Positions 27,488 through 46,361 of a stretch of DNA of 54,032 bases are shown piece by piece. The position numbers and the translations under genes were made by a program. Within the stretch, counting starts at the first letter, position 1; each line of letters opens with the position of its first letter. The notes under the pieces were generated by a model. That model was not told the DNA's origin. It was given only the letters and a program-made list of their open reading frames with translations, and made no database searches. The DNA is from an uncultured Burkholderiales bacterium (lineage in GTDB: Bacteria > Pseudomonadota > Gammaproteobacteria > Burkholderiales > Burkholderiaceae_C), in contig CAIKNE010000059.1 of assembly GCA_903828695.1 (NCBI GenBank), forward strand, positions 1 to 54,032, given 5' to 3'.

Positions 27488-27572
<85 letters not shown>

Positions 27573-28308: not shown

Positions 28309-29178
28309 ATGAACGCAGAAAACACTAAAGTCCAAGCCGGTTGGCAGCTCAAAATTGAGCATATTCTTGCCAAGCCTTTCATTCAACACGGTATCGTTGC
28401 GCTGATCTTTATCAATGCTATCTTACTTGGCATGGAAACGAGTCCTTGGATCATGAGTGAAATTGGCGAGGAATTACACATCCTTGATCACACCATTTTA
28501 GGAATTTTCATCTGTGAATTAGCATTCTTAATGCTAGCCAGAGGGTTGAATTTCTTTAAAGATCCTTGGTGTCTGTTTGATTTCGTTGTTATCGCGATTG
28601 CATTGATCCCTGCATCAGAGTCACTCGCAGTTTTGCGTTCACTGCGAGTACTTCGTGTACTTCGATTGATTAATAAAGTGGACAGCATGCGCAAAGTTGT
28701 TAGGGGCCTTTTGGGCTCATTAGCAAGTTTGGGATCGGTCATGGGACTGATGTTGATCGTGTTCTATGTATCCGCCGTTGTCACTACCAATCTATTTGGC
28801 AAAGAATTCCCTGAATTCTTCGGCAACCTTGGCTCTAGCTTCTTTACCCTGTTCCAAGTTATGACCCTTGAGAGCTGGTCAGACGGTATTGCAAGACCTG
28901 TGATGGAGAAGTTCCCTAACTCATGGGTTTTCTTTGTGGTCTTCATCATGATCGCCACCTTTGTGGTTGTGAACCTCTTTGTGGCTGCAATTGTGGACTC
29001 CTTCAGTGCACACAGTGCAGCTGATAAGGAGGAAGAAAAACGTATCCAAGACGAAGCACAGCGTCACATCGAGGAGCAAAGACTTCTGTTGCAAATTAAT
29101 GAAGAGTTCCACGCCATCAAGACAGAACTCGATGAGGTTAAAGATATGATCAAAGGGCTCACCCAGGTGCGGATCTGA
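28309..29178 (+). CDS. Voltage-gated sodium channel-type ion channel (BacNav), paralogue 1
   Basis: Six-TM homotetrameric voltage-gated cation channel of the NaChBac/NavAb family, 289 residues. S1 begins near HGIVALIFINAILLGMETS. S4 is ideal: LRSLRVLRVLRLINK with Arg at 110, 113, 116 and 119. The pore helix and filter read FTLFQVMTLESWSDG (filter 186-192); TLESW is the family's sodium-channel signature. S6 is FVVVNLFVAAIVDSF. The cytoplasmic tail is a charged coiled coil (about 238-285: EEEKRIQDEAQRHIEEQ, IKTELDEVKDMIKGL) as used for tetramer assembly. Asp at filter position 7 differs from NavAb (Met). Preceded by a long non-coding spacer; no operon partner. No clear Shine-Dalgarno. Confidence 0.93.
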   Translation: MNAENTKVQAGWQLKIEHILAKPFIQHGIVALIFINAILLGMETSPWIMSEIGEELHILDHTILGIFICELAFLMLARGLNFFKDPWCLFDFVVIAIALIPASESLAVLRSLRVLRVLRLINKVDSMRKVVRGLLGSLASLGSVMGLMLIVFYVSAVVTTNLFGKEFPEFFGNLGSSFFTLFQVMTLESWSDGIARPVMEKFPNSWVFFVVFIMIATFVVVNLFVAAIVDSFSAHSAADKEEEKRIQDEAQRHIEEQRLLLQINEEFHAIKTELDEVKDMIKGLTQVRI

Positions 29179-29388
29179 CGCTTGCATTTTGAAGATTGTC
29201 TTGGCCTGATTCTTTAGATCTGACCAACGAGCCAAAGCCTTGGCACTTTTACGACCTCATGTCCCCTCATATCGACATCAGGGACCAAATGAAGTGCTCA
29301 AATGCCCAAGTAGCCAAGCTCAAACGCTTTGATTGCGACATTAAAGAAATCAAATTACTGTGATTTCTTCCTATATTCAATCCAGCAA

Positions 29389-30213
29389 TCACTTGTCTTG
29401 GGCTACACCTCTAAGACCTGCACGCTTAATAATTTTGCTCAGCTCGCCGCTTCTCTTTAACTCATCGACAAAATTGTTTACGAAGTCCATATCAACAACA
29501 CGTGACTTAGGAAGACCTAGAGCAATGCTCTCGTAGCCCAAAACCTCATCAAGCACTTTTGAGTGCTCCCATTGATCTGACATCTCAAAGAGAATTCCTT
29601 TATTCGTAGAAAACGCGTCCAATTGTCCATTTCTTAGCATCTCGATAGCGCTAGCAGTAGAGTTAGTGCGCACGACCACGGCATTTTTAAGAAGATGAGT
29701 GAGTTCCAACTCCGAACTACTGCCTACGCTTACCCCCACTCGCATTCCGGGCTGATCAAGTTGAGATACCGATTGAATAGGTCCAAGCGAGCTCACCAAG
29801 TATCCGCGCTCGATACGAACTACAGGTTTAGAGAATTGGAGCACTTGAGCGCGCTCAGGGGATGCGTTTGTAAAAACAAGGTCAATACTTGCCTCTTTTG
29901 CTGCATAGAACACATCTGCGTTTTTAGGATAAATGATCGGCACATATTTGAGCTGAAGGACTTTTGCAAACTCACGGCCCAACTCATACCCAACCCCCAC
30001 CTTCTCAGAGTTTGCTGGGTTCGTAATCACAGAGGTGGGCGAGCCTGAATACAGGCCCATCCTAAGCTCACCGCGTACTGAAAAAGTGTCCGCAAAATCC
30101 GGGAGCCCTGCGTAAACGGTACTCAGGGCACATCCCAGTGCTAAACCCAAACCCAACCTCAAACCGACTCTCACTAGACTGCGTTTAAAGACTATTAAGC
30201 TCAAGTTATTCAT
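29389..30213 (-). CDS. Periplasmic solute-binding protein (SBP_bac_3 family)
   Basis: Amino-acid-type extracellular solute-binding protein, about 274 residues from the ATG at 30213 (MNNLSLIVFKRSLVRVGLRL), chosen because GGGAAAAGAGC precedes it; the longer frame begins inside a terminator T tract. The signal peptide runs to about residue 40 (LGLALGCALSTVYA). Domain features: RGELRMGLYSGSPTSVI, YELGREFAKVLQLKYVPIIY, DLVFTNASPERAQVLQFS, GMRVGVSVGSSSELELTHLL and LDAFSTNKGILFEM. No permease or ATPase gene is adjacent, so it is an orphan receptor; ligand unknown. Confidence 0.82.
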   Translation of the reverse strand: MNNLSLIVFKRSLVRVGLRLGLGLALGCALSTVYAGLPDFADTFSVRGELRMGLYSGSPTSVITNPANSEKVGVGYELGREFAKVLQLKYVPIIYPKNADVFYAAKEASIDLVFTNASPERAQVLQFSKPVVRIERGYLVSSLGPIQSVSQLDQPGMRVGVSVGSSSELELTHLLKNAVVVRTNSTASAIEMLRNGQLDAFSTNKGILFEMSDQWEHSKVLDEVLGYESIALGLPKSRVVDMDFVNNFVDELKRSGELSKIIKRAGLRGVAQDK

Positions 30214-30259
30214 GCTCTTTTCCCAAATTAAAAGCTCCATCACAGTAGACGAATTCATT

Positions 30260-30282
30260 AAAAAGGGGGGCCTAAAGCCCCC
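30260..30282 (-). terminator. Rho-independent terminator after the aldehyde dehydrogenase gene
   Basis: Minus strand: GGGGGC-TTTAG-GCCCCC followed by C and TTTTT. It sits 34 nt after the ALDH stop codon and directly before the solute-binding protein gene, separating the two units. Confidence 0.88.
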
Positions 30283-30315
30283 ACACGCATCTCAAAAAGT
30301 CAGCTGATCTAACGA

Positions 30316-31752
30316 TCAATCGCAAACAATTGAGACGGACTTCGTATTCAGATACGCCTCAAGCGCTTCTGAGCCGCCTTCTGATCCGTATCCGGAGTCC
30401 TTTACCCCTCCAAAGGGCATCTCTGGCCAAGCAACTGCAGGCTGGTTCATCCAAAGCATACCAACTTGCAATTGTTGAGCCAATAGATGAGCGTTTTTGA
30501 GCGATTTTGTAAAAGCATAACTGGCTAGCCCAAAAGGGAGCCGGTTAGATTCAGCAATGGCCTCATCCATCGTGTTAAAGGTTCTGATAGCCGCCATTGG
30601 ACCAAAGGGCTCATCGTTGAATACTTTTGCATCAAGACTCACGTCAGACAAAATGGTGGGAGCAAAGAAGTTACCCGTTGTCCCAATGCGCTCACCACCG
30701 GCAGCTACCGTAGCACCCTTGCTGATAGCGTCTTTTGTGAACTCGGCCATAGCCGTTAAGCGGCGTGGATTGGCAAGTGGTCCCATGGTCGTTCCGTCCT
30801 CAAGTCCATTGCCAATCTTAAGGCTCCCGGCTTGCTTGACCATCGCATCAATAAAGGATTTCTTCAGGCTGGAGTGAACAAGGAAACGGGTTGGGGAGAT
30901 GCAGACTTGTCCTGCGTTACGAAATTTAGCCGCTCCAGCAGCTTTGGCAGCTAGTTCAACATCAGCGTCCTCACAAACAATCACCGGAGCGTGTCCACCC
31001 AACTCCATTGTCGCGCGCTTCATGTGTAGTCCAGCCATTGCAGCCAACTGCTTACCAACGGGGGTTGATCCGGTGAACGTGATTTTGCGAATGGTTGGGT
31101 GAGGTATTAAGTAGCTTGAAATCTCAGCCGGGTCACCGTAAACCAGTCCAATCACACCTGCGGGAACGCCTGCATCCAAAAATGCCTTCAAAAGCCCAGC
31201 AGGAGAAGCTGGGGTCTCCTCAGGTGCTTTAACAATAATGGAGCATCCGGTGGCCAAAGCTGCACTGAGCTTGCGAACGACTTGGTTGATCGGGAAGTTC
31301 CACGGGGTAAATGCTGCTACGGGTCCTACAGGGTCTTTGAGAACCATTTGTTGTGCGGCTAAGTTACGAGCTGGAACGACGCGCCCATAAACGCGTTTGC
31401 CCTCTTCAGCAAAGAACTCAATGATGTCGCTTGCCATACCAATCTCAGCTTTGGCTTCTGCGAGCGGTTTGCCTTGTTCCTGGGTCATCAAAGCCGCAAT
31501 TGCGGGCGCGCGCTCTCGTAGAAGAGCGGCGGCTTGACGCATAATTTTGCAACGCTCAAAAGCGGGAACTCTGCGCCATGTATCAAAACCTTTTTGAGCT
31601 GCGCTTAAAGCTCGGTCCAAGTCCACTTTACTCGCAAATGCAACTCGACCAATTTCCTGCGCTGTGGCTGGATTAAGAACGGGCAGTGTTTTTCCGTCTG
31701 CAGCGTCGCACCATTGGCCGTCAATTAACAACTGAGTATTAGCATAGGTCAT
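30316..31752 (-). CDS. gabD: NAD(P)-dependent succinate-semialdehyde dehydrogenase-type ALDH
   Basis: Aldehyde dehydrogenase oxidising semialdehydes such as succinate or glutarate semialdehyde. 478 residues. Active-site elements are complete: Asn152 in [10 protein letters not shown], general base Glu250 in MELGGHAPV, nucleophile Cys284 in NAGQVCISP, and EPFGPMAAI near residue 390. [12 protein letters not shown] is the cofactor-site helix. The sequence is closest to the GabD-like group, but it could act on alpha-ketoglutarate semialdehyde, which would fit the glucarate genes in this window (inference). ATG start at 31752. Terminator downstream. Confidence 0.88.
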
Positions 31753-32096
31753 TCTTGGAGTCTTTCAAAGTTCAGTAAATAAATAGAAGTCCGTTCTGGG
31801 GGATCACATCAAAGTTTACCATCCAGGCTAAACAAATGTTTATTACGGCTTAGGCACTTCCACTTAGTCGCATCAATTTCTACCCCACTCAGCTTGTATG
31901 TGACTTACAACTTTACAAATTTGTTTGAGCCGTTGAACGACACTTCATCTTTAATTAGGGAATTCCCTGAGAGAATTCAACACCGTACACTGGGTATCAA
32001 GAAGGCTACCACTGCCAACGAATGGACACCTATCTCGAACTGTTCGGCCATTACTGTTAAATATCTAATAAGAAGATCCCAACGCCAAAGCCTGTT
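31753..32096. other. 344-bp divergent spacer (ALDH / AbrB-family gene)
   Basis: No supported gene. A frame starting at 31894 runs into the membrane-protein gene in another frame and has unnatural composition. A 12-codon frame (MDTYLELFGHYC) ends 37 bp before the AbrB-family start without a ribosome binding site. Promoters for both genes must lie here but none is convincing. Confidence 0.5.
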
Positions 32097-33218
32097 ATGC
32101 CCCCCTTATTTGGACTACCATCATCCAGCCAATCGGTATTTGATTTATCAAGGCTACCCCGGGCTGTGCAGTGGATATCACTGCTCATCGTGACCCTACT
32201 TACCACTGCATTTTGCGAATGGCTGTCCCTGCCTGCAGCTCTTTTACTAGGCCCCATGTTTGCTGGCATCATCACGGAGTCCTTGGGCGCGCGCGTAAGA
32301 CTTCCGCGAGTTTCATTACATATCTCTCAGGCGGTTATTGGTTGCTTGATAGCAAGGTCCATCAATCAAGATATTTTGAATGTATTTATCGCCCAGTGGC
32401 CAATTCTGATCTGCACAGTGTCGATGACCTTGATCGCAAGTGTTGCGCTCGGTTGGGGGATCGGCAAGATAGGAATATTACCAGGCACAACGGCGATATG
32501 GGGACTCCTTCCTGGTGCAGCGTCTGTGATGGTCATGATGGCAGAGGACTTCGGAGCGGACTCAAGGTTAGTGGCGTTCATGCAGTATTTGCGTGTTCTC
32601 ATGGTCACCGTTACGGCTTCTTTAGTTGCGAAGTACTGGGCGCATATTCCAAGCACTGCACTGCACACGATGGTTTGGTTTCCCCCTCTTCATCTACAAG
32701 CCCTTGCGGTGAGTTTGGGCGTTATTGCGTTTAGCCTGTTAGCAATGTTCACCCCCAGCATCTCTGGTGGTGTTTTGCTGCTATCCATGACGCTTGGGGG
32801 CTTTATTCAATTAGAAGGGTACGCGCAGCTTGAATTACCCGTGTGGCTTTTAGCAGTCGCCTTTGCACTCATTGGGTGGAATGTAGGATTGAGATTCACG
32901 CGGGAGGTGTTGATTGCTGCAGCAAAAGCAATGCCTCAAACTATCATGACGATTGCCCTTTTAATCCTCTTTTGCATGGGACTTGCAAGCGTATTGGTCC
33001 ACTTCCTAAATGCCGATCCATTGAGCGCCTACTTGGGCACCAGTCCCGGCGGAGTGGACTCTGCGGCAATTATTGCAGCATCTACAAAAGTAAACATTGC
33101 TTTCGTAATGGCTCTACAAATTATGCGCTTTCTGATCACACTCCTTGTAGGCCCCTCCCTCTCACGGTTTGTTGCTAATCTATCCACCAAATCCGAGGCT
33201 AAATATAAATTAGTATAG
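32097..33218 (+). CDS. AbrB-family integral membrane protein (putative transporter)
   Basis: 373 residues with about ten hydrophobic helices. Matches the membrane AbrB/ammonia-monooxygenase-named family, annotated by legacy as a regulator although it is a polytopic membrane protein; function unproven. Duplicated internal architecture: LPAALLLGPMFAGIITE in the first half and LGGFIQLEGYAQLELPVW in the second, plus ILPGTTAIWGLLPGAASVMVM and LGTSPGGVDSAAIIAAST, the two conserved LPG/SPGG re-entrant-like motifs. Start ATG at 32097, weak Shine-Dalgarno. Next downstream is a small winged-helix protein on the same strand after 291 bp. Confidence 0.8.
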   Translation: MPPLFGLPSSSQSVFDLSRLPRAVQWISLLIVTLLTTAFCEWLSLPAALLLGPMFAGIITESLGARVRLPRVSLHISQAVIGCLIARSINQDILNVFIAQWPILICTVSMTLIASVALGWGIGKIGILPGTTAIWGLLPGAASVMVMMAEDFGADSRLVAFMQYLRVLMVTVTASLVAKYWAHIPSTALHTMVWFPPLHLQALAVSLGVIAFSLLAMFTPSISGGVLLLSMTLGGFIQLEGYAQLELPVWLLAVAFALIGWNVGLRFTREVLIAAAKAMPQTIMTIALLILFCMGLASVLVHFLNADPLSAYLGTSPGGVDSAAIIAASTKVNIAFVMALQIMRFLITLLVGPSLSRFVANLSTKSEAKYKLV

Positions 33219-33509
33219 AAATTAAGAATCTCTGAGGCACTTGAAACTAGAACAGCAAAGAAGTCCGGTCTAAAAAATATTTGTCAAAATTAGTTATAAA
33301 ACACTACTTATATACACACCCCCTATTGTTGCTAAGGGATGGAGCAATCAGCATGTGCAGTAATGACTCAAAGTTTGATTATAAAATCACTTTTGTTATA
33401 CCAAAAATAATAAAATTCAATAAAATCAAATTTATCAATTTACTCTCAAACTTTAAGCTGATATGATATTATAAATTAATATTTATTTTCCAGTCACAAG
33501 AGCTCAATC

Positions 33510-33860
33510 ATGAATTCAAATCCTTACATACAATTCCTAAAACTATCTCAGATTCTGACTCAAAAGGAATTGGGTCAAGATTTAGACACGGTTTGCGTAA
33601 AATTGCTTGAGCTGATCACCATCAGCAACGCCAAAGATGAGGCTTTAACAGTATCACAAGCCATGGCGATGTCTCTTTTGGGGTCGCCTGCAACGATGCA
33701 CCGTAAGATTGATATTCTTCGCAAACAAGGCTGGATAGATTTGGTGCATGAGGGCGAAGACCGCAGAACCAAATACCTTGTGCCGACAAATAAGGCCTAT
33801 AAATATTTTGACTCACTCTCTAAGGCAATGAACAAGGCTTGGGCCAAAGCGCAGGCTTAA
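33510..33860 (+). CDS. Small winged-helix (MarR-like) DNA-binding protein
   Basis: 116 residues. Helices containing VCVKLLELITISNAKDEAL and LTVSQAMAMSLLGSPATMHR precede the recognition helix and a wing (LRKQGWIDLVHEGEDRRTKY, LVPTNKAYKYFDSLSKAMN). The DRRTKY wing followed by a final dimerisation-type helix is typical of MarR-like regulators, though the N-terminus is short. Likely a transcription regulator; target unknown. The 291-bp spacer upstream is very AT-rich. It converges on the Bug receptor gene. Confidence 0.7.
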   Translation: MNSNPYIQFLKLSQILTQKELGQDLDTVCVKLLELITISNAKDEALTVSQAMAMSLLGSPATMHRKIDILRKQGWIDLVHEGEDRRTKYLVPTNKAYKYFDSLSKAMNKAWAKAQA

Positions 33861-33895
33861 ATTCTTCAAGTAAAAGCCTTGCTGTTATTGCTACC

Positions 33896-34894
33896 TTACT
33901 GGATCTTAGCGCCCGAGTCTTTGACTATTTTGGACCATACAATTAAATCGTCCTCGATGGTTTTGGCATACTGCTCGGGCGTAGTGCCCACAACCTCATA
34001 GCCTATTGAGTTAAGCTGAGCTTTAATTTTTGGATCACGCGCTACCTCATTGAATACTTTACTCAATCGCTCAATCACCGGCTTGGGGGTTCCAGCCGGT
34101 GCAAGTAGTCCATACCAACCGTCCATTGCGAAATCAGGCAACAGCTCTGAGACAGTTGGAACAGTGGGAAGCAAGGGCGAGCGCTTATTACTTGCCAGGC
34201 CGAGTGCTCTAAATTTACCCGCTTTAATTTGTGGGTAAGATGTGGCAAAACTATCAAACATCAAATCAATCTCCCCGCCCAAAAGCGCGACCACGACAGG
34301 ACCACTCCCTTTGTAGGGTATGTGCTCCATTTTGATACCCGCTTGCGCTTGAAGCATCTCCCCGCCTAGGTGACTGGTGTTTCCATTACCAGCGGAGCCG
34401 AAGGATAATTTGCCAGGATTGGCTTTTGCATAAGAAATCAGATCAGGAAGTGTCTTAAAGGGGGAGTCCGCTCGAACAACGATCAACTGGGGCAACCGAG
34501 CTAAGAGTGTTATAGGCGCAAAGTCCCGCCTAGTATCGTAGGGAAGGGATGGGTAAAGGGATGGATTGATGACATGGGCTGATAACACCATCAATAGGGT
34601 GTACCCATCGGGCTTTGATTTTGCGAGCGCTGCAGTTGCGATCGTACCCCCAGCTCCTGCCTTGTAGTCAATGACGACGGGTTGACCCAATTGCTTTTGC
34701 AATTCCCCCATCATTGGGCGAGCTAAAAAATCTGCACTCCCCCCAGGCGCGTAGGGCAGGATCAACGTAATGGGTTGGACGGGATAGCGTTGATCGGATT
34801 GGTTTTGGGCTAAGAGAGTTTGAGCAAAAAGCGTCAACAACGCAAAGCTTAAAACCCACTTAAGTTGGATAGAAAAATACTTTTTTAAATACAA
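33896..34894 (-). CDS. Bug-family (TctC-type) periplasmic solute-binding protein, copy 1
   Basis: Tripartite tricarboxylate transporter receptor of the Bug family, abundant in Burkholderiales. 332 residues. Signal peptide about 1-28 (LSFALLTLFAQTLLA), then the family start YPVQPITLILPYAPGGSADF, RPMMGELQKQLGQPVVIDYK, GAGGTIATAALAKSKPDGYT, and HIPYKGSGPVVVALLGGEID. Start is TTG at 34894 with GGAG 8 nt upstream. No tctA/tctB membrane genes are nearby, as usual for Bug proteins. The ligand, probably an organic acid, is not predictable. Confidence 0.92.
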   Translation of the reverse strand: MYLKKYFSIQLKWVLSFALLTLFAQTLLAQNQSDQRYPVQPITLILPYAPGGSADFLARPMMGELQKQLGQPVVIDYKAGAGGTIATAALAKSKPDGYTLLMVLSAHVINPSLYPSLPYDTRRDFAPITLLARLPQLIVVRADSPFKTLPDLISYAKANPGKLSFGSAGNGNTSHLGGEMLQAQAGIKMEHIPYKGSGPVVVALLGGEIDLMFDSFATSYPQIKAGKFRALGLASNKRSPLLPTVPTVSELLPDFAMDGWYGLLAPAGTPKPVIERLSKVFNEVARDPKIKAQLNSIGYEVVGTTPEQYAKTIEDDLIVWSKIVKDSGAKIQ

Positions 34895-34989
34895 GTTTGA
34901 ATCTCCGGTGATTTACGCGTCCTGGGGACCGTCGTGTTAACGCCCTTGGTGTGTCACTGACAAACCAAGAAAAAAAGTCAATACCCTTA

Positions 34990-35011
34990 CCCCTACCAAG
35001 CCCCTACCAAG
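34990..35011. repeat. 11-bp tandem duplication
   Basis: CCCCTACCAAG occurs twice head-to-tail immediately downstream of selD (stop at 35021). Short slippage-type repeat; no function assigned. Confidence 0.85.
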
Positions 35012-35020
35012 CCCATACGC

Positions 35021-36061
35021 TCAATTGACTCTCAGCCCACTACCTTGCTCAAAGGTTCCAATCTTCCCCGCAGACTCAAATCCGCATTTCTTAAAGATTG
35101 CAAGCACCTCAGCCTCTGCGCTAGGCGTGCAGGAGACGAGTAAACCACCACTTGTTTGAGGGTCGGTGAGTAAGTTTTTATGCCATTCCTCAAGATTTGA
35201 TCCCAGCGTAATTTCCCGACCATACCCGGCCCAGTTGCGTGTAGACGCACCCGTATAAATATCGCTACGAACCAACTCAACGGCCTCAGGGATAACGGGC
35301 ACACTTTGCAGATCAACATCCGCACGGAGTTTGGAGCCCCTACAAAGCTCCAGTAAATGACCCGCCAAACCAAATCCAGTTACATCTGTCAAAGCGTTCA
35401 CACCGCTCAAACCGGACAGCTCAATACCGGGCGTATTCAGCTGAGTAGTATATGAAATCATTTTGGCATACCCCTGCGCTGAGAGGATCTCTTTTTTCAG
35501 CGCTGCGCTCAAAATACCGACGCCAATCGGCTTACCTAAGATGATGCTATCCCCAGCTTTTGCGGAGTTGTTGCGTTTGAGTTTTTTAGGATCAACGATA
35601 CCTATCACCACGAGCCCGTAAATGGGTTCAACTGTGTCAATGGAGTGACCCCCTGCAATGGGTATATTCGCAGCAGCGCAAACGCTCTCCCCTCCTTGGG
35701 TAATTTTTTGTATCACCTCAATTGGCAATACATTGATTGGCATACCCAGTATCGCTAGAGCGAATAAAGGTTGGGCGCCCATGGCATATACATCGGAGAT
35801 CGCATTGGTTGCAGCGATGCGACCAAACTCAAAGGGATCATCAACGATGGGCATAAAGAAATCTGTGGTCGCAACAATAGCTTGCGATTCGTTGATTTGG
35901 TAAACGGCGGCATCCTCGTTGTTATCCAAACCCGCCAATAAAGCGGGAGGGAGGGTGCGAATAGGAGAAGATTTTAAAATCTCACTCAATATTCCAGGAG
36001 CAATTTTGCAACCGCAACCACCGCCGTGGGAGAGTGAGGTTAATCTTGCATTGAAAGTCAT
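35021..36061 (-). CDS. selD: Selenide, water dikinase SelD
   Basis: Makes selenophosphate from selenide and ATP for selenocysteine and 2-selenouridine synthesis. 346 residues. Catalytic motif GGGCGCKI places Cys16 and Lys19; the position that is selenocysteine in some bacteria is an ordinary Cys codon here. Other motifs: DNNEDAAVYQ, TTDFFMPIVDDPFEFGRIAA, SDVYAMGAQPLFAL, GGHSIDTVEPIYGLVV and DVTGFGLAGHLLEL. No mnmH, selA or selB gene is in the window, so the selenium pathway it serves cannot be read here. Confidence 0.96.
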   Translation of the reverse strand: MTFNARLTSLSHGGGCGCKIAPGILSEILKSSPIRTLPPALLAGLDNNEDAAVYQINESQAIVATTDFFMPIVDDPFEFGRIAATNAISDVYAMGAQPLFALAILGMPINVLPIEVIQKITQGGESVCAAANIPIAGGHSIDTVEPIYGLVVIGIVDPKKLKRNNSAKAGDSIILGKPIGVGILSAALKKEILSAQGYAKMISYTTQLNTPGIELSGLSGVNALTDVTGFGLAGHLLELCRGSKLRADVDLQSVPVIPEAVELVRSDIYTGASTRNWAGYGREITLGSNLEEWHKNLLTDPQTSGGLLVSCTPSAEAEVLAIFKKCGFESAGKIGTFEQGSGLRVN

Positions 36062-36186
36062 GGACTGAAATTGTTTTGATTCAAAAGGAAGATCTTACCC
36101 CTTTTTGGGGATAGAAATAAGGCAAGGCAAGACTTCACGCTGTCCGTATGTCAATTCCAATCTAAAAGTCAATGACTGAGTTTTTC

Positions 36187-38146: not shown

Positions 38147-38182
38147 ATTTATCGGCAATAATAGGAGAAGCATCAGGCAGTA

Positions 38183-38866
38183 GTGCCAAATCTTGTCCTC
38201 AATCCATACAAAAATATGCCTGACGTACCCAAAAGAACTACTATATCAAACCCACCATTTGAGTTAGTGACCTCCAAAGGGGACATCACCAAGTCACTTA
38301 TCCTAGACGCTGCGCTTTATTTGGCAGGAAGAGACGGATTTGAAGGAATCACCATTGGCTCTATTGCCCAGCGTATGCAAATGAGCAAGAGCGGTGTGTA
38401 CGCTCATTTTGAGTCCAAAGAAAATCTTCAAATTGAAGTTATTCGTGAATACCACCGCCGTTTTAGACATGTGGTTTTCGAGCCTGCACTGCAGACCCCC
38501 AGAGGGCTTCCCCGCCTGAAAAAGATGCTTGAATTATGGACGGAGCAGACCATATCGGAAGTCTCCACGGGGTGCATTTACATATCTGGAGCATTCGAGT
38601 TGGATGACAGACCCGGCCCTGTGCGTGAGGAGCTCGTGCTTATTGTCAAAACATGGCGAAAAACACTGGTGCGGGCTATTGAGATGGCCATTGAGGAGGG
38701 GCACCTGAGTGCGAAGACCAAACCCTTGGATATGCTTTTTGCCGTTTACAGCTTTATTTTGGGTTTGCAACATGACGCTAGGTTTTTGAAAAAAATGAGC
38801 AGCGTTGAAATCGCTAGACGCCATATCAAAGGCATCCTCGATTTAAATAAACCAGTTCAAAGCTAG
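38183..38866 (+). CDS. TetR/AcrR-family transcriptional regulator
   Basis: 227 residues. The N-terminal HTH is clear: KSLILDAALYLAGRDGFEGI, TIGSIAQRMQMSKSGVYAHF and ESKENLQIEVIREYHRRF. The C-terminal ligand domain contains TGCIYISGAFELDDRPGPVR and is TetR_C-like. The frame opens at GTG 38183 with AGGAG about 15 nt upstream; an ATG at 38216 (MPDVPKRTT) is an alternative start without a clear site. Probably represses the divergent acyl-CoA dehydrogenase in response to an acyl-CoA (inference from context). Confidence 0.9.
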   Translation: MPNLVLNPYKNMPDVPKRTTISNPPFELVTSKGDITKSLILDAALYLAGRDGFEGITIGSIAQRMQMSKSGVYAHFESKENLQIEVIREYHRRFRHVVFEPALQTPRGLPRLKKMLELWTEQTISEVSTGCIYISGAFELDDRPGPVREELVLIVKTWRKTLVRAIEMAIEEGHLSAKTKPLDMLFAVYSFILGLQHDARFLKKMSSVEIARRHIKGILDLNKPVQS

Positions 38867-39046
38867 CCGGCTGCATTAAAACCCATATATGGGTAAGGTA
38901 TGAATCGAAAATTAAAGGTTTTCACTTAAAAAACGCTCTTAGAATCGCCCTCGATTATCTTTACAATTAAAATACGCTTGCATTTTTTAATATGCAAATC
39001 AATACAACTCTTGGTGTTTATTCAGTCAAATAACAATTCATCAAAA

Positions 39047-39907
39047 ATGGACCTTACAGATACCACAGAAAATAATTGGCGTAATAAGATTGAACAATTC
39101 TTAGCCCGCCCTATCATCCAGCACGGTATCGTGTTTCTCATATTACTGAACGCCGTTTTGCTTGGCATGGAGACAAGCCCAGAGATCATGAGTCAATTTG
39201 GGGAGTTACTGCACATTCTTGACCACGCGATATTGTGGATATTTATAGCTGAGTTGGTTTTGCTAATGTCAGCAAGAGGGCTTCAGTTTTTCAAAGATCC
39301 CTGGTGCCTTTTTGACTTTATTGTGATTGGTATTGCCTTAGTACCAGCGTCAGAGTCACTTGCAGTTCTTCGGTCCTTAAGGGTACTGCGGGTACTGAGG
39401 CTAATTAATAAATTCCAGAGCATGAAAAAAGTAGTTCGAGGACTTCTCGGCTCTTTATCCAGTCTGGGCGCGGTCATGGGACTCATGATGGTCGTGTTTT
39501 ATGTGGCCGCTGTTGTGAGCACCAACCTCTTTGGGAAAGAGTTCAGCAACTACTTTGGTAGCTTAGGAGCCAGTCTTTTCACGCTCTTCCAGGTGATGAC
39601 TCTTGAGAGCTGGGCTGATGGTGTTGCAAGACCCGTGATGGAGAAGTTCCCAGACGCGTGGATATTCTTTGTAATCTACATCATGTGTTCAACATTTGTG
39701 GTCGTCAATCTTTTTATAGCGGCTATCGTTGACTCTTTCTCCAACTCTGACACCGAGACCGAAGATAGACAAAAATTAGAGGCTGAAATTCAACGCGAAC
39801 AACAGGCGCAGCGACTCTTATCAGAGATCAACGATGAATTTATCGCCATTAAAACTGATCTGCACGAAATCAAAGGATTATTAGCTTCCTCATTTAGCAA
39901 GAATTAA
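39047..39907 (+). CDS. Voltage-gated sodium channel-type ion channel (BacNav), paralogue 2
   Basis: 286 residues from the ATG at 39047 (MDLTDTTENNW); the open frame extends 23 codons upstream to a TTG without support. Same architecture as paralogue 1 and very similar to it through S1-S6. Voltage sensor LRSLRVLRVLRLINK has Arg at 109, 112, 115 and 118. Filter FTLFQVMTLESWADG (185-191): TLESW with Ala at position 6 and Asp at 7. S6 is FVVVNLFIAAIVDSF. The C-terminal coiled coil differs in sequence (QKLEAEIQREQQAQRLLSEI, then IKTDLHEIKGLLA). Monocistronic, about 180 bp after tetR. Confidence 0.93.
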   Translation: MDLTDTTENNWRNKIEQFLARPIIQHGIVFLILLNAVLLGMETSPEIMSQFGELLHILDHAILWIFIAELVLLMSARGLQFFKDPWCLFDFIVIGIALVPASESLAVLRSLRVLRVLRLINKFQSMKKVVRGLLGSLSSLGAVMGLMMVVFYVAAVVSTNLFGKEFSNYFGSLGASLFTLFQVMTLESWADGVARPVMEKFPDAWIFFVIYIMCSTFVVVNLFIAAIVDSFSNSDTETEDRQKLEAEIQREQQAQRLLSEINDEFIAIKTDLHEIKGLLASSFSKN

Positions 39908-40011
39908 CTTTAGCCTCTATATTCAATTTAGTCGTCCCTCACCGCTTGGGCTCAGAGTGCACTGTTGGGTCGTAATCTCTAGCTAAGTCATATTTAATCA
40001 AAGGTCTACTT

Positions 40012-40055
40012 GATCAACAGGCCTTAAGGCGGCCTGATCCTGAGACTCACTCAGG
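40012..40055. other. Two adjacent stem-loops in the channel 2 / cysK spacer
   Basis: GATCA+GGCC (40012-40016, 40020-40023) pairs with GGCC+TGATC (40031-40039) with an ACA bulge. Directly next, CCTGAG (40039-40044) pairs with CTCAGG (40050-40055). No T tract follows. The 376-bp spacer (39908-40283) holds no other recognisable element; the structures could be part of transcript ends for the two convergent genes. Confidence 0.45.
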
Positions 40056-40283
40056 AAAGCTCAGCATAGTCCAATAAATTTATACGCAAACCCTCTCAGG
40101 TAATGTCCCCGTCTGACAGCGATTTTGGTGGTGTTTGTTCTCAAAAAAATGTCCGCTTTTCAAAATTTTGAGTTGCGGATCATGCTTTTTTTAATGCGCC
40201 ATTGAAGCATTGATACCCGCTCCCAATCCTAATTCAACATCAGTTTTGATCACAACTGCGTCAAGCGCTGAGTTTGCGTTAAA

Positions 40284-41258
40284 TTAATTGACGGCCAATC
40301 CTTGCTCATCAAATAGCCCTTCAAACAAGGCTGAGGTGAGATATCTTTCTGCTAAATCAGGCAGGACAACGACAATGGTCTTACCCGCATATTCAGGTAA
40401 CTTTGCCAACCTCACAGCCGCCGCCGCCGCAGCGCCGCAGGAGATGCCGACCAACAACCCCTCCTCTTTGGCTAGTCGTCTTGCAAAGTCGATAGCCTCT
40501 TCATTGGTAACTTGCTCGACGCGGTCTATCAAGCTCAAATCCAAATTATCAGGAATGAAACCAGCTCCGATGCCCTGGATTTTGTGGGGCCCAGGCTTTA
40601 ACTCTTGACCTTGTCGTTTTTGAGTGATGACAGGACTAGAGGTGGGCTCTACAGCCACCGATTCAATTTGTTTTTTCTGAGTATTTTTAATGTAGCGAGA
40701 AATACCCGTAATTGTGCCGCCCGTCCCAACGCCACACACAATCACATCAACCTCTCCCTGGGTGTCGTTCCAGATCTCGGGACCGGTTGTTTTTTCATGT
40801 ATAGCAGGATTGGAGGGATTCGTAAATTGCTGCAAAAGCACATACTTGGAGTCCGACTTTGCAATCTCCACTGCCTTGGCTATGGCGCCGTTCATTCCCT
40901 TAGCGCCCTCTGTCAAGATGAGCTTAGCACCCAAGATAGTGAGCAATTTTCTTCGCTCAATGCTCATTGTCTCCGGCATTGTTAGCGTGAGCGGTATGCC
41001 TTTGGCAGCCGCAACAAAGGCAAGTGCGATACCCGTGTTACCGCTAGTCGGCTCAATGAGCTCCTTACCTGGGGGGAGCAACCCCTTATCTATTGCATCA
41101 TGGATCATTGCTGACCCAATACGACATTTGACCGAGTAAGCTGGGTTTCTGCCCTCGATCTTTGCTAAAACCGTAGCTCCAGCCCCGTCTATGACTCTAT
41201 TGAGCTTTATGAGGGGAGTATTTCCTATGGAGAGGGAGTTATCAGCGTAAAGGGTCAT
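40284..41258 (-). CDS. cysK: Cysteine synthase A (O-acetylserine sulfhydrylase)
   Basis: PLP enzyme forming cysteine from O-acetylserine and sulfide. 324 residues. PLP-binding Lys44 in [11 protein letters not shown]; Asn loop [11 protein letters not shown]; phosphate-binding glycine loop [29 protein letters not shown] near residue 270. Overall sequence tracks E. coli CysK, including [17 protein letters not shown], rather than CysM. ATG at 41258. No cysE or sulfate genes are adjacent. Confidence 0.93.
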
Positions 41259-41310
41259 GGGTTTACTCGGTTGAATGGTGTTGTGAGGCCAATAAATGAA
41301 ACTGGGGCTT

Positions 41311-41466
41311 TCAAACCTCCAATTCTGCCATTTTTACAGTCGTCATCAGAAAAAGTATCTGACGCTTGATTTTATTTCTTTCCTGAGTGCGTTCAAAGGG
41401 GAGCAGATCGTGCTGTTTTAGAAGGTCAGTGATGATTGGGTTGTAATGCATTCTGATCTTTGACAT
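41311..41466 (-). CDS. Small hypothetical protein (51 aa)
   Basis: An unannotated-size frame with a good translation start: GGAG stands 6 nt before ATG at 41466. The product begins [17 protein letters not shown] and ends TVKMAELEV. It is charged, with a likely amphipathic helix over [20 protein letters not shown]. It lies just upstream of cysK on the same strand (52 bp), so it could be co-transcribed with it. No family recognised; existence rests on the ribosome binding site and natural composition only. Confidence 0.45.
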
Positions 41467-41908
41467 AGCTCACTCCGAGGAAATTGGATGATGAAGCCAT
41501 CTTAATGGAAATACTCAATCATTCAAAGCAATTTTTTCGCATAAGAACATGCAAAAAATTGCTATAGTCGGGTTCGAGGTAGGAATTCGCCTGAACATGC
41601 TATTTGGACTGGGAACTTATGAAGCTGAACGGGGGGCTAATCAGCGCTACTCGCGGGCCCCTTTAGACCTGGAGCTATGACTTCATCTAAATTCAAAAAT
41701 TTGGCACTCTGGCACAGAAACTTATAGATGATGCGGGAGCTATCCAAGAATTGATTCCCAGGCAAACTATTCAACGCAGTTGATCTTAAGGACCTGAGAG
41801 CTCGATATTCAGTTGGTCTATTAGACATAGACATCTTCGGAAAACGCCTTGATTTTGGACCCGAATATTGAAGATGTCTACCAAGAAAAATTCAACTACT
41901 TATCAATT
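41467..41908. other. 442-bp spacer between small ORF and gudD
   Basis: No supported gene. A 65-codon minus-strand frame at 41637-41834 (MSMSNRPTEYRALRSL...) lacks a Shine-Dalgarno and resembles nothing I know. GAAGATGTCTA (41870-41880) and AGACATCTTC (41825-41834) form a near-perfect inverted repeat about 35 nt apart. Nothing else seen. Confidence 0.4.
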
Positions 41909-43243
41909 TCAACGAACTAAACACGGTTTTTTATGATCAAATTTCCAATTGGGTATTAGGAATTGCATTGCCGCAGAATCGTCTCGAGCGCCTAATCCAT
42001 GCCTTAAATAGAGTTGGTGAGCTTGCTCGACAGACTCCATATTTAGCGTTACGCCAAGTCCTGGTTTATCAGGTACTTGGACATGACCATCGATGATTTG
42101 CAGTGGCTGCTCGGTCAATCCTTGACCGTCTTGCCATATCCAGTGAGTATCAATCGCCGTCACTTTACCTGGGGCTGCTGCAGCCACTTGGGTGAACATC
42201 GCAAGCGACACATCAAAATGATTATTGGAGTGCGAGCCCCAAGTTAATCCCCAATCCCGACAGGTTTGAGCTACCCTCACAGAGCCCGCCATTGTCCAAA
42301 AATGCGGGTCAGCAAGTGGAATATCAACACTTTGCAAAGACAAGGAATGGGTTAATTGACGCCAATCGGTGGCCACCATGTTGGTCGCGGTGGGCAAACC
42401 AGTCTCCCGTCTGAACTCGGCCATCACTTCGCGTCCACTAAAACCCTCCTCTGCTCCGCAGGGGTCTTCAGCGTAGGCGAGAACTCCGTGCATATCCCGC
42501 ATCAACCTGACAGCGTCTTTTAAGAGCCAGCCCCCATTCGGATCCAGAGTCACACGTGCAGAGGGGAAACTCTCGTGAAGCGCTTGAACTGCTTCAATCT
42601 CCGCTTCCCCACTCAATACGCCGCCTTTTAGCTTGAAGTCGTTAAATCCGTATTTCTCACGGGCCGCCTTGGCAAGCTTAACGATGGAGCTAGGATCTAA
42701 GGCCTGCTCATTGCGGAGTCGAAACCACTCAATATCTGCGTCGTGTTCTGTGCGGTAAGGAAGCTCAGTTTTGACTCGGTCGCCTATGTAGAACAAATAA
42801 CCCAACATTTCAACGCAAGAACGCTGCTGCCCCTCGCCTAGCAAAGCAGCAACTGGGACATTTAGATACTGCCCAAGCAAATCTAACATTGCTGACTCAA
42901 CAGCAGTTACAGCGTGTATTGTTGTTCGCAGATCAAAAGTTTGCAGTCCACGACCTGATGCGTCTCGATCTGCAAATTGAATTCGCATTTGCGACAGTAC
43001 GGATTGCACATTGGCAATACTTTGCCCGATCACCAAGGTAGAAGCATCTTCAATTGTTTTGCGAATCTTCTCACCTCCGGGTACTTCGCCGATGCCCGTA
43101 TGACCGGAGTTGTCGGTTAATAAGATTAAATTACGCGTGAAAAACGGACCATGAGCGCCTGATAAATTCAAGAGCATACTATCGTGACCCGCAACAGGTA
43201 TAACTTTAAGTGATGTAACGGTAGGCGTTGAAGAGGTACTCAT
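41909..43243 (-). CDS. gudD: Glucarate dehydratase
   Basis: Enolase-superfamily enzyme converting D-glucarate (or L-idarate) to 5-keto-4-deoxy-D-glucarate. 444 residues, normal. N-terminal capping domain ([55 protein letters not shown]), barrel motifs [19 protein letters not shown] with the catalytic Lys pair, metal ligands in [11 protein letters not shown] and [16 protein letters not shown], and the general-acid/base His in [18 protein letters not shown]. No glucarate transporter adjoins it. An HpcH/HpaI aldolase that could act on the product lies 3.4 kb away. Confidence 0.95.
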
Positions 43244-43375
43244 ATGATTGATCCCAGTTGATATACAAGAGATTCTATACTCATCAACTTATACAAAAGA
43301 ATACAATCAAATCATCCAAAAAGATAAATTCGAATTTTTCCAGTAGAAAACCCTATTTCCTCCATTAGGCACGTA

Positions 43376-44767
43376 ATGCTGAGATCTCTTAGATTGTTGA
43401 TCATTGTTAGAGTATTTATTTGCGTGTTCATATTTGTCTTACTGAACCGCTTTGCTGCACCCTATGCTGTAAAGGATTTCATTACTGACAGCATAACTAT
43501 AGAGCTACGTGAAGTTATTACCAAGACCAACGTATTCACTTCGAACACTATCGATTTTCAACTCACCAATCCAAAAGTTTTTCACGGATTCCAAATCAGA
43601 ACTCTCATTAAGTGCTCAGCCTATTACAAGGTATACGACAGCATTTGCCCCTTCCTATCTTCTGAATCAGTGCAGTGGCAGAAAATTGGCGACGAAGTGA
43701 CGCCAACGATTGAGCCCCTGATCGAGTTCGCAATCATTAATGTTGGCAAAAAAAGTTGGGGAGCTGTGAGAAAAGAAAACCACGGGTCATATGACTACCT
43801 CGCCTTTGACCGGGATGAGATTGACGACATCATTGATTTTGTTTGGAGTGTAAGAAACAGAATTCTCCGCTACTACGCACCTTTATTAGTTCTCTTTAGT
43901 TTGGCAGTCGGGCTGTACTTAAGTAGCTATATCATTTCACTATTAAATGATGTGCAGATGATGGTCGGAAAGACGGATGCGGCCAACCTAGAAATACAAA
44001 CTAATTCTCAAGCTTATTTTAAAGAATTTCAATCTTTTATAAACGTATTCGAAAGTTTAAAGGTACGCCTTAAAAACAGCTTTGATCAAACCAGTCGATT
44101 TTCCTCGAACGCATCACACGAGTTAAAAAAACCATTGACTATTTTGCGCGGACATGCGGAGCAAGGTTTAAAGATCGCCAAAGACGGATCACCGGAACAA
44201 ATGCACTTTGCCGTGATCTCCGAGCAAGTTAACCAATTGATTGGTATAACGGATCGATTGCTGCTCCTTGCTAAGGCTGACGCCAATTCTTTGACACTCA
44301 ACCTTACTGATGTCAATATTTCAAATCTTTTCAAGAAAATCATTGAAGACGCATCACTATTAAGACCCGATTTAGTCATTACTCAAAAGATTGAAGATGA
44401 TATACGCTGGAACAGCGATGAGTATCTCATTCAACAATTAATCGTAAACCTCTTTTCCAATGCAATGAAATACGCATCACAAAATGGATGGATCCATTTT
44501 GTGCTCAGGCGAAAAGGCTCTCAAGTGCATCTTGAGATTAATAATAGCGCCATCAATATCCCCCATGATTTAAACGGAAAAGCATTTGACCGCTTTTACA
44601 GGGGTCACGAAATAGGTTCGCAATTAATCGAAGGTAGTGGATTGGGGCTGAGCCTGTGCAAAGAGATCGCCAAGGTACATGATGCTTTCATACACCTAGA
44701 TACAGATGAAGGTAAAAGCGTACGGGCTGTGTTAGCGTTTAAAACAATCTCAATTGCCGCTCTTTAA
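43376..44767 (+). CDS. Orphan sensor histidine kinase
   Basis: 463 residues. TM1 about 8-25, a periplasmic domain of about 140 residues with two Cys (80, 91) that could form a disulfide, TM2 about 167-189, a short linker/HAMP-like coil, HisKA with phospho-acceptor His248 in FSSNASHELKKPLTILRGHA, and HATPase_c: N-box LIVNLFSNAMKYA, F-box FDRFYRG, G2 GSGLGLSLCKE. The G1 box DxGxG is not present in recognisable form; the region reads LEINNSAINIP. No response regulator is adjacent; the regulator 8 kb away is FixJ-type, not the OmpR-type expected. Its end overlaps the convergent next gene by 29 bp. Confidence 0.9.
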   Translation: MLRSLRLLIIVRVFICVFIFVLLNRFAAPYAVKDFITDSITIELREVITKTNVFTSNTIDFQLTNPKVFHGFQIRTLIKCSAYYKVYDSICPFLSSESVQWQKIGDEVTPTIEPLIEFAIINVGKKSWGAVRKENHGSYDYLAFDRDEIDDIIDFVWSVRNRILRYYAPLLVLFSLAVGLYLSSYIISLLNDVQMMVGKTDAANLEIQTNSQAYFKEFQSFINVFESLKVRLKNSFDQTSRFSSNASHELKKPLTILRGHAEQGLKIAKDGSPEQMHFAVISEQVNQLIGITDRLLLLAKADANSLTLNLTDVNISNLFKKIIEDASLLRPDLVITQKIEDDIRWNSDEYLIQQLIVNLFSNAMKYASQNGWIHFVLRRKGSQVHLEINNSAINIPHDLNGKAFDRFYRGHEIGSQLIEGSGLGLSLCKEIAKVHDAFIHLDTDEGKSVRAVLAFKTISIAAL

Positions 44768-45416
44768 ACAAAAAATCAGTTATAAAAGTATTCAATAAAG
44801 CGTGGTGCTCTCCCCCGTGCCAATGGGGTTGCATATACTTCCTTGTGTACCAATTCGATTCACTCTCAAGATGACAGCCAATTAAGCCAAGTGGACCCTG
44901 AATAATAGCCATAGGATCCCCATTTGCATAACTGGCAACCACCTCAAAATCGCCCCCAACAAAAGTTGGCCCATCATAAAAGTACATCCGCTTTTGTTGC
45001 CCACGCCAATAAACAGGGACTGTCGTTCCGTAGGATGACTTTACATCTGCACGAGGTCGCTTTATGTACTGAACGACACGTGTTCCTTTGAGTAGATCGA
45101 AGTAGTAATGATCTGCCCAATAAGCTCCCATACAAATCCCGAGAAACTTACCCCCCCGGCTCATGAATCTTTTGAAATCGTCTGAATTCAGTTTCATGAT
45201 TTTTTTAAAAACACCTGCATCCCCATCACCTCCGGGGAAAACCACCAAATCTACCGATTCAAAGTAGTCCTCTGAAACCTTGTAATTTGTCCAGATTTTG
45301 ATGTGATAGTCAGTAGATAAGGCTCTGATAATCCCATTAACAGAATCAATTGAACAAGTAGGGTGATGCAAAAAAATAGCAATCGTTTTTTTCGTTACCG
45401 GTAAAACCGAATGCAT
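44739..45416 (-). CDS. BPL_N / class I glutamine amidotransferase-like protein
   Basis: 225 residues of the biotin-protein-ligase N-terminal-like, GATase1-like fold. A Rossmann-like start (TIAIFLHHPTCSIDSVNGII), an acidic PGGDGDAG loop (LVVFPGGDGDAGVFKKIM), and a nucleophile elbow GKFLGICMGAYWADHYYFD with Cys in the expected position. A distal His occurs in IGCHLESESNWYT, and Glu follows, consistent with a Cys-His-Glu site. Similar stand-alone proteins have unknown function. It overlaps the convergent histidine kinase gene by 29 bp at the 3' end; nothing indicates functional linkage. Confidence 0.75.
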   Translation of the reverse strand: MHSVLPVTKKTIAIFLHHPTCSIDSVNGIIRALSTDYHIKIWTNYKVSEDYFESVDLVVFPGGDGDAGVFKKIMKLNSDDFKRFMSRGGKFLGICMGAYWADHYYFDLLKGTRVVQYIKRPRADVKSSYGTTVPVYWRGQQKRMYFYDGPTFVGGDFEVVASYANGDPMAIIQGPLGLIGCHLESESNWYTRKYMQPHWHGGEHHALLNTFITDFLFKERQLRLF

Positions 45417-45548
45417 ATTTCAGTTCTTTAACTTAGATCGATCAAACTATAGAGCGAATAGTTCAAGAAGGCGATAGAACAATTCATCAGTTGACCAATA
45501 AGCAATTTGCCAACATGAAATAATTTACGTCCAGCGATAAATAACACT

Positions 45549-46361
45549 TCATTTGACGGTAATACGATCGTTCAAATGCGAAATTAGATCTTGCTGTTTA
45601 AGCATGAGCAGTTTCAAATCACTCAATTCAGATTTAATTTCGTTCAACTCGTCTGATGATTTGTCGTTTTGATTGCTTGCCGACAATGAATCAACAATAA
45701 CCGCTATGAATAGGTTAACAACAACAAAGGTCGCGCATAAGATGAAGAACAAGAAAAAGACCCAGGCATATGGAAATTTCTCCATAACCGGCCTTGCAAT
45801 GTCTCCCGCCCACCCCTCAAGAGTCATGACCTGAAACAGTGTAAATAAGCTGTGTTCCAAATCCCCAAACCAATCTGGGAATGTGTTGCCAAATATATTG
45901 GTGACGACCACAGATGAGACGTAAAAAACAACTAATAAAAGCCCCAAAACTGACCCCAAACTAGAAAGTGAGTTGAGTAAGCCTCTTACGACCTTTCGCA
46001 TGCTCGCCACTTTGTTGATGAGGCGAAGCACTCGCAGGACTCGCAAAGAGCGCAGGACTGACAACGAGTCTGAGGCGGGGACAAATGAAATAGCGATCAC
46101 TATAAAATCAAAAATACACCAGGGATCTTTGAAAAAATTTAACCCCCGGGCGAAAATCATCAACAATAGTTCAATAACGAACACACCTAAGATTGCATGA
46201 TCTAACCCGTGAATGATCTCCCCGTACTGCCCCATGACATTCGCACTGGTCTCCATCCCCAGCAGTATTGCGTTGATCACAATTAATGCAATCATTGAAT
46301 TTTGGAATACTGGATGGTGGGTAAGTCGATAGGCTGAATGCCGCAAGGAGTTGATGTTCAT
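45549..46361 (-). CDS. Voltage-gated cation channel (BacNav-like), paralogue 3 with TLEGW filter
   Basis: 270 residues, six-TM channel clearly paralogous to the other two. Voltage sensor LRSLRVLRVLRLINK, Arg at 104, 107, 110 and 113. The filter differs: FTLFQVMTLEGWAGD (180-187), with Gly at position 4 and Gly at position 7 in place of Ser and Asp. A Gly at position 4 was, to my knowledge, reported to matter for calcium selectivity in CavMr of Meiothermus ruber, so this copy may conduct calcium (inference). S6 FVVVNLFIAVIVDSL; short C-terminal coiled coil DELNEIKSELSDLKLLMLK. Transcribed opposite to the other two channels. Confidence 0.92.
   Translation of the reverse strand: MNINSLRHSAYRLTHHPVFQNSMIALIVINAILLGMETSANVMGQYGEIIHGLDHAILGVFVIELLLMIFARGLNFFKDPWCIFDFIVIAISFVPASDSLSVLRSLRVLRVLRLINKVASMRKVVRGLLNSLSSLGSVLGLLLVVFYVSSVVVTNIFGNTFPDWFGDLEHSLFTLFQVMTLEGWAGDIARPVMEKFPYAWVFFLFFILCATFVVVNLFIAVIVDSLSASNQNDKSSDELNEIKSELSDLKLLMLKQQDLISHLNDRITVK

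Follow-up and report, generated by a model that had tools for sequence, protein, structure and literature searches.

The NavAb-like bacterial voltage-gated sodium channels (BacNavs) harbor a single Ion_trans domain of six transmembrane (6-TM) segments within about 270-290 amino acids, an S4 segment with arginines at every third residue, and a selectivity filter that usually reads TLESWSM. Filter positions are numbered here as in PMC7041947 (T1 L2 E3 x4 W5 x6 x7). The TLESWSM motif is a usual feature and not a strict criterion of the BacNavs, since the filter of NaChBac is TLESWAS. The C-terminal coiled coil of these channels is described in PMC3791462 as stabilizing the tetramer and as reportedly not essential for assembly. 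Here we deal with a window of 54,032 nucleotides, the entire contig C59 (CAIKNE010000059.1) of the 3.02 Mb metagenome-assembled genome (MAG) G000 of an uncultured Burkholderiales bacterium, probably a freshwater one (completeness 97.95%, contamination 0.74%), which encodes three NavAb-like paralogues, P1, P2 and P3. We consider, with a probability of roughly 0.55, that these arose by local duplications, have been kept by selection and form pores that differ in predicted ion selectivity.

CavMr from Meiothermus ruber, a member of the ancestor-like BacNav group, carries the filter TLEGWVD and has a PCa/PNa of 218, compared with 11.9 in the G4S mutant and 144 in D7M; the position-4 glycine is reported to be required for its high Ca2+ selectivity (PMC7041947). 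CavMr is termed the sole identified prokaryotic voltage-gated calcium channel (Cav) in PMC12919392, in which NavAb M181A mutants, including S178G/M181A, are described as no longer discriminating between Li+ and Na+ and as having an approximately 10-fold selectivity for Ca2+. It has also been proposed that a glycine directly after the high-field-strength site (HFS+1) goes with Ca2+ selectivity and a neutral, non-glycine residue with Na+ permeability (PMC10120453, 2023). The three genes of the window and their principal features are located as follows.

28309..29178, plus strand: P1, NavAb-like single-domain voltage-gated cation channel, 289 amino acids, intact open reading frame with Pfam match
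28633..28677, plus strand: P1 S4 voltage-sensor string LRSLRVLRVLRLINK
28864..28887, plus strand: P1 filter TLESWSDG (Ser4, and Asp7 in place of Met)
29095..29160, plus strand: P1 putative C-terminal coiled coil INEEFHAIKTELDEVKDMIKGL, core I-F-I-L-V-I-L
39047..39907, plus strand: P2, NavAb-like channel, 286 amino acids, start ATG, intact open reading frame with Pfam match
39368..39412, plus strand: P2 S4 voltage-sensor string LRSLRVLRVLRLINK
39599..39622, plus strand: P2 filter TLESWADG
39827..39883, plus strand: P2 putative C-terminal coiled coil INDEFIAIKTDLHEIKGLL, core I-F-I-L-I-L, a P1-like pattern
45549..46361, minus strand: P3, NavAb-like channel and apparently the older duplicate, 270 amino acids, intact open reading frame with Pfam match
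45561..45647, minus strand: P3 putative C-terminal coiled coil LNEIKSELSDLKLLMLKQQDLISHLNDRI, core I-L-L-M-Q-I-L-I, different and with Gln
45801..45824, minus strand: P3 filter TLEGWAGD (Gly4 as in CavMr, Gly7, Asp8)
46011..46055, minus strand: P3 S4 voltage-sensor string LRSLRVLRVLRLINK

The three open reading frames lie where the initial annotation had placed them, although it had omitted that P3 is on the minus strand; an in-frame TTG is found at 38978, upstream of the P2 ATG. Each matches the Pfam family Ion_trans (PF00520) almost end to end at 143.7-149.7 bits and has the length, the single domain and the S4 arginine spacing of a NavAb-like BacNav, and no NCBIfam model matches the three. 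At the amino acid level P1 is 68% identical to P2 and 59% identical to P3. An A1 profile search of G000 returned exactly three BacNav matches, all within the window, where they are separated by 6-18 kb with other genes between them. The best match of P1 in the PDB is to NavAb entries (E 3e-67) and that of P3 is to 5hvx (E 9e-67), which we take to be NavMs. A human Cav3.2 chain scores equally high for P1 (4.9e-67, with six stretches summed); trees with TLESWSM relatives agree with the NavAb-like ranking, NavAb, NaChBac and CavMr themselves being outside those trees. The triplet shares with NavAb and NavMs the 6-TM plan, the S4 pattern, the high-field-strength glutamate, the pore helices (termed P1-P2 helices in such channels) and the C-terminal coil. 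It differs in having three copies instead of the usual one, aspartate (P1, P2) or glycine (P3) instead of methionine at position 7 and, in P3, glycine instead of serine at position 4.

The glutamate ring of the TLExW filter is thus present in all three channels, whereas the canonical TLESWSM is met in none, as Met7 is absent from all of them and Ser4 from P3. Of the eight filter residues, one differs between P1 and P2 and four between P1 and P3. The glycine at position 4 that characterizes CavMr occurs in P3 only, P1 and P2 having Ser4. At position 7 the polar or acidic residue of the CavMr type is lacking in P3, and P1 and P2 have Asp7 but Ser4. Because of its Gly7 and of the aspartate moved to position 8, P3 is not classed as a CavMr member; it shares TLEGW with that channel, groups with NavAb-like sequences, and has a predicted Ca2+ selectivity. 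P3 combines in nature an S178G-like state with a non-Met181 state, as do the NavAb S178G/M181A laboratory mutants described in PMC12919392, the differences being a glycine rather than an alanine at 181 and an aspartate at 182.

These departures stand out against the near constancy of the filter elsewhere. Outside the genus, TLESWSM followed by G or S was found in 86 of the 88 NavAb-like filters examined, a set comprising 59 of 78 loci from a scan with two peptide patterns (best matches) and 29 of 109 other carriers from the class sample, from which the threshold applied, a score of more than 150 bits to A1, largely excludes the ancestor-like group. The two exceptions are TLESWSAG (L210) and TLEGWSEE (L061, an Oxalobacteraceae MAG). 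Within the genus the filter could be read in 68 sequences and has 13 versions: position 4 is serine in 45, glycine in 21 and asparagine in two, and position 7 is aspartate in 40, glutamine in 12, glutamate in nine, glycine in five, and alanine and asparagine in one each, with methionine in 0/68. On a tree built without the filter columns, at least 7 changes are needed at position 4 and at least 10 at position 7. The P3 filter is identical in all five P3-type sequences and occurs in none of the other 63, and the P2 orthologues of G012 and G019 have TLENWADG. Glycine is also found at position 4 in L061 and in a pair from G062, both near the base of the tree, so that the deepest changes may have run in either direction, and other genus members have TLEGWSQ or TLEGWSE filters. 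The change from serine to glycine is nonetheless clear for P3, because the rest of its 33-row group has serine or asparagine. As judged from these sequences, what is new here is a natural escape from a near-invariant NavAb-like filter, in which one paralogue has acquired the glycine of CavMr. Odd apparent filters from a regular-expression scan, such as TLPVWKQK and TVTQWIGE, were discarded, since alignment to P1 gave TLESW-type filters and the scan had thus matched elsewhere in the proteins. At one G062 locus (C1, L165:1549-4639) two BacNavs lie on one strand on either side of a double-sensor K+ channel, a type described below, and in both the filter reads TGDGWSDS, position 2 being glycine.

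The statement of the initial annotation that bacteria usually carry one BacNav holds among the carriers sampled. Even sampling of the class gave 110 matching genomes out of 370 at a cut-off of 1e-25; besides G000, 96 of these have one copy, 13 have two and none has three. At 1e-40 the phylum sample gave 103 carriers out of 397, with 96 single, six double and no triple besides G000. Both sweeps scored at most six first-look candidates per genome, which sufficed to recover all three in G000. In the genus, 47 of 84 genomes match at E 1e-30, of which 31 have one copy, 10 have two and six have three (G000, G088, G012, G019, G027 and G062), and five of these six hold the present triplet. Near relatives therefore do not routinely carry three or more copies, and the three-copy set is rare yet conserved in a small group of species. 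Local BacNav duplication happens elsewhere too, as side-by-side pairs are found in three of the six two-copy genomes of the phylum sample (G501, G537 and G575, other Pseudomonadota), there with two adjacent copies instead of three. Among the matches listed, a literature search gave no description of BacNav duplication or of multi-copy BacNavs. An apparent fusion of two BacNav repeats in G034, in an open frame of 599 amino acids, proved to be two separate frames of 281 and 288 amino acids.

The proposal that the set arose by local duplication and divergence is supported by the phylogeny, together with the gene order and flanking genes conserved in sister species. In a careful tree of 71 rows, from which a G070 fragment was dropped, a 14-row group unites the P1 and P2 types (support 98/99) and a 7-row group the P2 type alone (99/99); the five rows of the P3 type group together on a long stem (100/100), and all three types fall inside a 33-row genus group (99/92). 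A quick tree of 110 rows, with the filter columns removed and G048, G054 and the G070 fragment dropped, took 41 of the 88 non-genus sequences and G041 as its outside rows and supports a 45-row genus group (98). Both trees place the three channels in one genus group and not in unrelated clades. L061 is placed among the genus sequences in the quick tree, and the genus as a whole is therefore not demonstrated to form a single clade. From the sequences, P1 and P2 are closer to each other and P3 appears to be the older duplicate.

Four sister species also have the triplet, which is unbroken in two of them and divided between contigs in the other two. The gene order is identical in G000 and G088: RNase R - P1 - SBP3 - ALDH, then TetR - P2 - PALP, then BPL_N - P3 - HpcH. 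The order and orientation of the three channel genes are also kept in G012 within the 20 kb compared, where some genes have been gained and TetR, AIRS and the histidine kinase were not seen. G019 and G027 have P1 and P2 on one contig with neighbors of the G000 type and P3 on another, beside HpcH and BPL_N in G019 and beside HpcH at a contig end in G027. In general, P1 orthologues adjoin ALDH, in some cases with SBP3 between, and have RNase R on the opposite side where the contig reaches that far; P2 orthologues are flanked by TetR and/or an acyl-CoA dehydrogenase and by PALP or MR_MLE; and P3 orthologues adjoin BPL_N and/or HpcH in the four sister species. The second BacNav copy of G080 lies at the P2 site. 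Since the arrangement recurs in separately assembled MAGs, it is not an assembly artefact. A blastn comparison of the three loci with their flanks found DNA similarity only inside the genes, so no repeat accounts for the copying.

Between G000 and G088 the ratio of non-synonymous to synonymous divergence (dN/dS) is 0.015 for P1, 0.029 for P2 and 0.057 for P3, at a dS of about 0.3, which shows purifying selection on all three channels. The values come from our own Nei-Gojobori script, and in most other pairs the synonymous sites are saturated. P2 evolves fastest: its dN between G000 and three more distant species is about 0.22, compared with 0.05-0.07 for P1 and 0.10-0.12 for P3. As the initial annotation had noted, the S4 string LRSLRVLRVLRLINK and the motif ARPVMEKFP are identical in P1, P2 and P3. 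The LRSLRVLRVLRLINK or LRALRVLRVLRLINK form is found in 62 of the 72 sequences of the genus set (69 from the genus and three outsiders) versus 1/88 from other lineages, and ARPVMEKFP in 29/72 versus 0/88, and these motifs mark the genus, not specifically this triplet. The claim that the copies differ most in the filter and the C-terminal coiled coil stands for the C-terminus and fails for the filter. In a comparison by segment the C-terminus (identities of 20/54 for P1/P2 and 7/36 for P1/P3) and the N-terminus (8/23 and 2/18) are the most divergent, whereas the segment of pore helix and filter is among the more conserved (24/28 and 22/28). P1 and P2 are 80-91% identical across the S4, S5 and pore segments.

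The sequence of events that we favor begins with one ancestral NavAb-like gene in this Burkholderiales genus, from which at least two local duplications would have produced the three paralogues. Each product would form a tetramer that opens on depolarization by way of its arginine-bearing S4, and the set would have been retained because its pores differ in ion selectivity. Met181, the Ca2+-excluding residue of NavAb, is missing from all three channels. P1 (TLESWSD) and P2 (TLESWAD) are predicted to conduct Na+ with a clear Ca2+ permeability, and P3 (TLEGWAGD), with glycine at HFS+1 and without Met181, is predicted to be the most Ca2+-selective of the three. In this scenario P1 and P2 may also combine in mixed tetramers, and P3 would probably assemble only with itself. 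By analogy with the Ca2+ permeability of the NavAb M181A mutants, a graded Na+/Ca2+ selectivity is the leading candidate mechanism, and the filter comparison, together with the published mutants of other channels, supports the prediction that the three channels are differently selective. Several points weigh against this interpretation. NavAb S178G that keeps Met181 has a PCa/PNa below 0.01 and favors Li+ (PMC12919392), so glycine by itself makes no Ca2+ channel. NaChBac (TLESWAS) and NavPp (TLEDWTD, PCa/PNa 0.31) are reported to be Na+-selective without Met7, so that loss of the methionine, or an Asp7, is not sufficient in every background. Position 7 of P3 is glycine and not aspartate as in CavMr. 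The Na+/Ca2+ exchanger family PF01699 was not found in a search of G000, though present in 11 of 14 control genomes, and no Ca2+ export partner is thereby identified. As regards the history, P3 joins a 24-row P1-type group only weakly in the careful tree (81/55), and the P2 copies do not form one group in the quick tree without filter columns.

The three genes might instead encode redundant Na+ channels of similar selectivity, retained for gene dosage or because they are expressed under different conditions. They stand apart as single genes among unrelated neighbors (TetR beside P2, HpcH and BPL_N beside P3), and each could thus have its own regulation; the limitation of DNA similarity to coding sequence means that the regulatory regions have diverged, and S4 is near identical in the three. 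Redundancy sits poorly, however, with a filter that is near-invariant outside the genus and yet differs at 4/8 positions between P1 and P3, and with the constancy of the P3 filter in 5/5 orthologues, and we consider it rather unlikely. Adaptation to dilute water, in which an acidic or polar residue in place of Met181 would aid cation capture at low Na+ and the three copies would be incidental, seems doubtful. It would fit the change of position 7 in 68/68 genus sequences, including those of the 31 single-copy genomes (G070 having no readable filter), and several source MAGs are, by their isolate names, presumably lake samples. It leaves the P3 glycine unexplained, and a Hydrogenophaga MAG and two Rheinheimera records keep TLESWSM, although both lineages include freshwater members.

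It is also conceivable, if unlikely, that P1 and P2, perhaps with P3, would combine in one tetramer with an asymmetric pore, like the eukaryotic four-domain channels. A heptad scan of the three C-termini, run without a null control, gives P1 and P2 a common core pattern (I-F-I-L-[V/I]-[I/L]), to which their similarity in the S4, S5 and pore segments may be added, while the core of P3 differs. Mixed P1/P2 tetramers are thus possible and their co-assembly is plausible, and P3, less plausible as a partner, probably forms homotetramers of its own. A match of coils proves little, since the coil is reportedly non-essential for assembly (PMC3791462), and the genes lie 6-18 kb apart with others between. 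Independent horizontal acquisition of the three genes is very improbable. Relatives of BacNavs do occur on some plasmids: at E 1e-5 P1 has matches in 39 of 72,556 records, none of them reaching 60% identity. Since the phylum sample gave no BacNav match in the 15 other members of the family, the first copy may have come into the genus from outside; for the three copies, independent acquisition is already contradicted by the single genus group in both trees, the motifs nearly confined to the genus and the conserved synteny.

The genus is rich in other voltage-gated channels. G000 has 16 Ion_trans matches, of which one is weak. The others are the three BacNavs, three 6-TM channels whose filter is GYGD, a fragment of a double-sensor K+ channel on C145, and four double-sensor K+ channels that account for two matches each and of which one is truncated at a contig end. 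There are 0-2 Ion_trans matches in each of 24 others of the order and 1-16 in 36 others of the genus. The double-sensor channel has ten transmembrane segments (10-TM) in mostly about 530-580 amino acids, arranged as S1-S4, a linker and then S1-S6 with TLASVGYGD or TLSSVGYGD, and each of its two S4 segments has an arginine ladder. Examples are located as follows.

G000:C41:34631-37848: double-sensor K+ channels (L004, L007)
G000:C5:23343-25007: double-sensor K+ channel (L006)
G000:C33:27682-29094: double-sensor K+ channel (L005)
L053:7390-9027: double-sensor K+ channel

Matches that include the first sensor were found in 76 of 84 genus genomes, six of 398 other genomes of the order and, in the class sample, none of 369 others, with at most three candidates scored per genome in the order and class searches and two long frames (G162, G210) left out of the class count. 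No PDB chain spans both sensors among the best 60 of 137 matches, and a literature search gave no description of such a channel among the matches listed, by which its absence from print is not established. A BacNav lies within 60 bases of a same-strand double-sensor gene, by match ends, in nine of 47 carriers and within 12 kb in 14, and in G009 and G033 the two genes overlap by 4 bases; in G000 they are on different contigs. A joint role of the two channel types in membrane voltage is plausible. In a further and rather improbable extension of our interpretation, P3 would be a native Ca2+-selective channel derived by local duplication from a NavAb-like Na+ channel. The resulting Nav/Cav paralogue set and the voltage-gated K+ channels, including 10-TM subunits with two sensors each and eight per tetramer, would then constitute an excitable membrane that fires Na+/Ca2+ spikes.

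Islands of about 8 kb with six voltage-gated channels occur at L187 (G009:C5:24500-34500) and L190 (G033:C1:454500-465500), and comprise two double-sensor channels, one of them overlapped by a BacNav, as well as a Kv-type channel and two channels whose filters are unusual. The unusual pairs are adjacent or overlapping 6-TM genes with SGYGN/AGYGN and SGWGN/AGWGN filters, versus the K+ signature GYGD, and such a pair is possibly a heteromeric non-selective channel. Directly upstream of the double-sensor channel in five loci is a protein of 188-198 amino acids with one N-terminal hydrophobic segment, similar by eye, which is a possible partner subunit. In G000 a further 6-TM channel (L010, G000:C103:29404-30159) has, by eye, a pore about two residues shorter before the filter, VLAVTGYGD as against IVTLTTTGYGD in its paralogue L009. 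Flagellin_N matches lie in very long open frames across the genus, up to 1793 amino acids and 1190 in G000, which suggests giant flagellins. A link of the BacNavs to motility was not supported, as flagellin was found in 62 of 84 genus genomes, 36 of 47 BacNav carriers and 26 of 37 non-carriers (Fisher p 0.62), counts that are lowered by incomplete MAGs. Within the window itself, a tRNA-Leu (CAG) at 27488-27572 lies between RNase R and P1 and was the only result of the Rfam scan; promoter and terminator scans gave numbers similar to those of shuffled sequence (28 against a mean of 32.5, and 23 against 20.5).

L187:5615-7487: 6-TM pair with non-canonical filters
L190:6323-8198: 6-TM pair with non-canonical filters
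L191:2122-3975: 6-TM pair with non-canonical filters
L057:6458-8319: 6-TM pair with non-canonical filters
L053:9036-9602: 188-198 amino acid protein
L057:4145-4741: 188-198 amino acid protein
L187:9228-9815: 188-198 amino acid protein
L190:9932-10519: 188-198 amino acid protein
L191:5728-6303: 188-198 amino acid protein
G030:C1:33069-33479: Flagellin_N match
G000:C31:4516-4926: Flagellin_N match

The BacNavs are widely used as models of Na+/Ca2+ selectivity and, among those examined outside this genus, the natural NavAb-like filters are nearly invariant; to our knowledge, their native role is largely unknown. The three paralogues of this one genome differ where laboratory mutants show that the choice between Na+, Ca2+ and Li+ is controlled. 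The genus as a whole provides a natural series of filters, which makes the transition from Na+ to Ca2+ channel directly testable with natural sequences, and it points to bacteria in which to look for native excitability.

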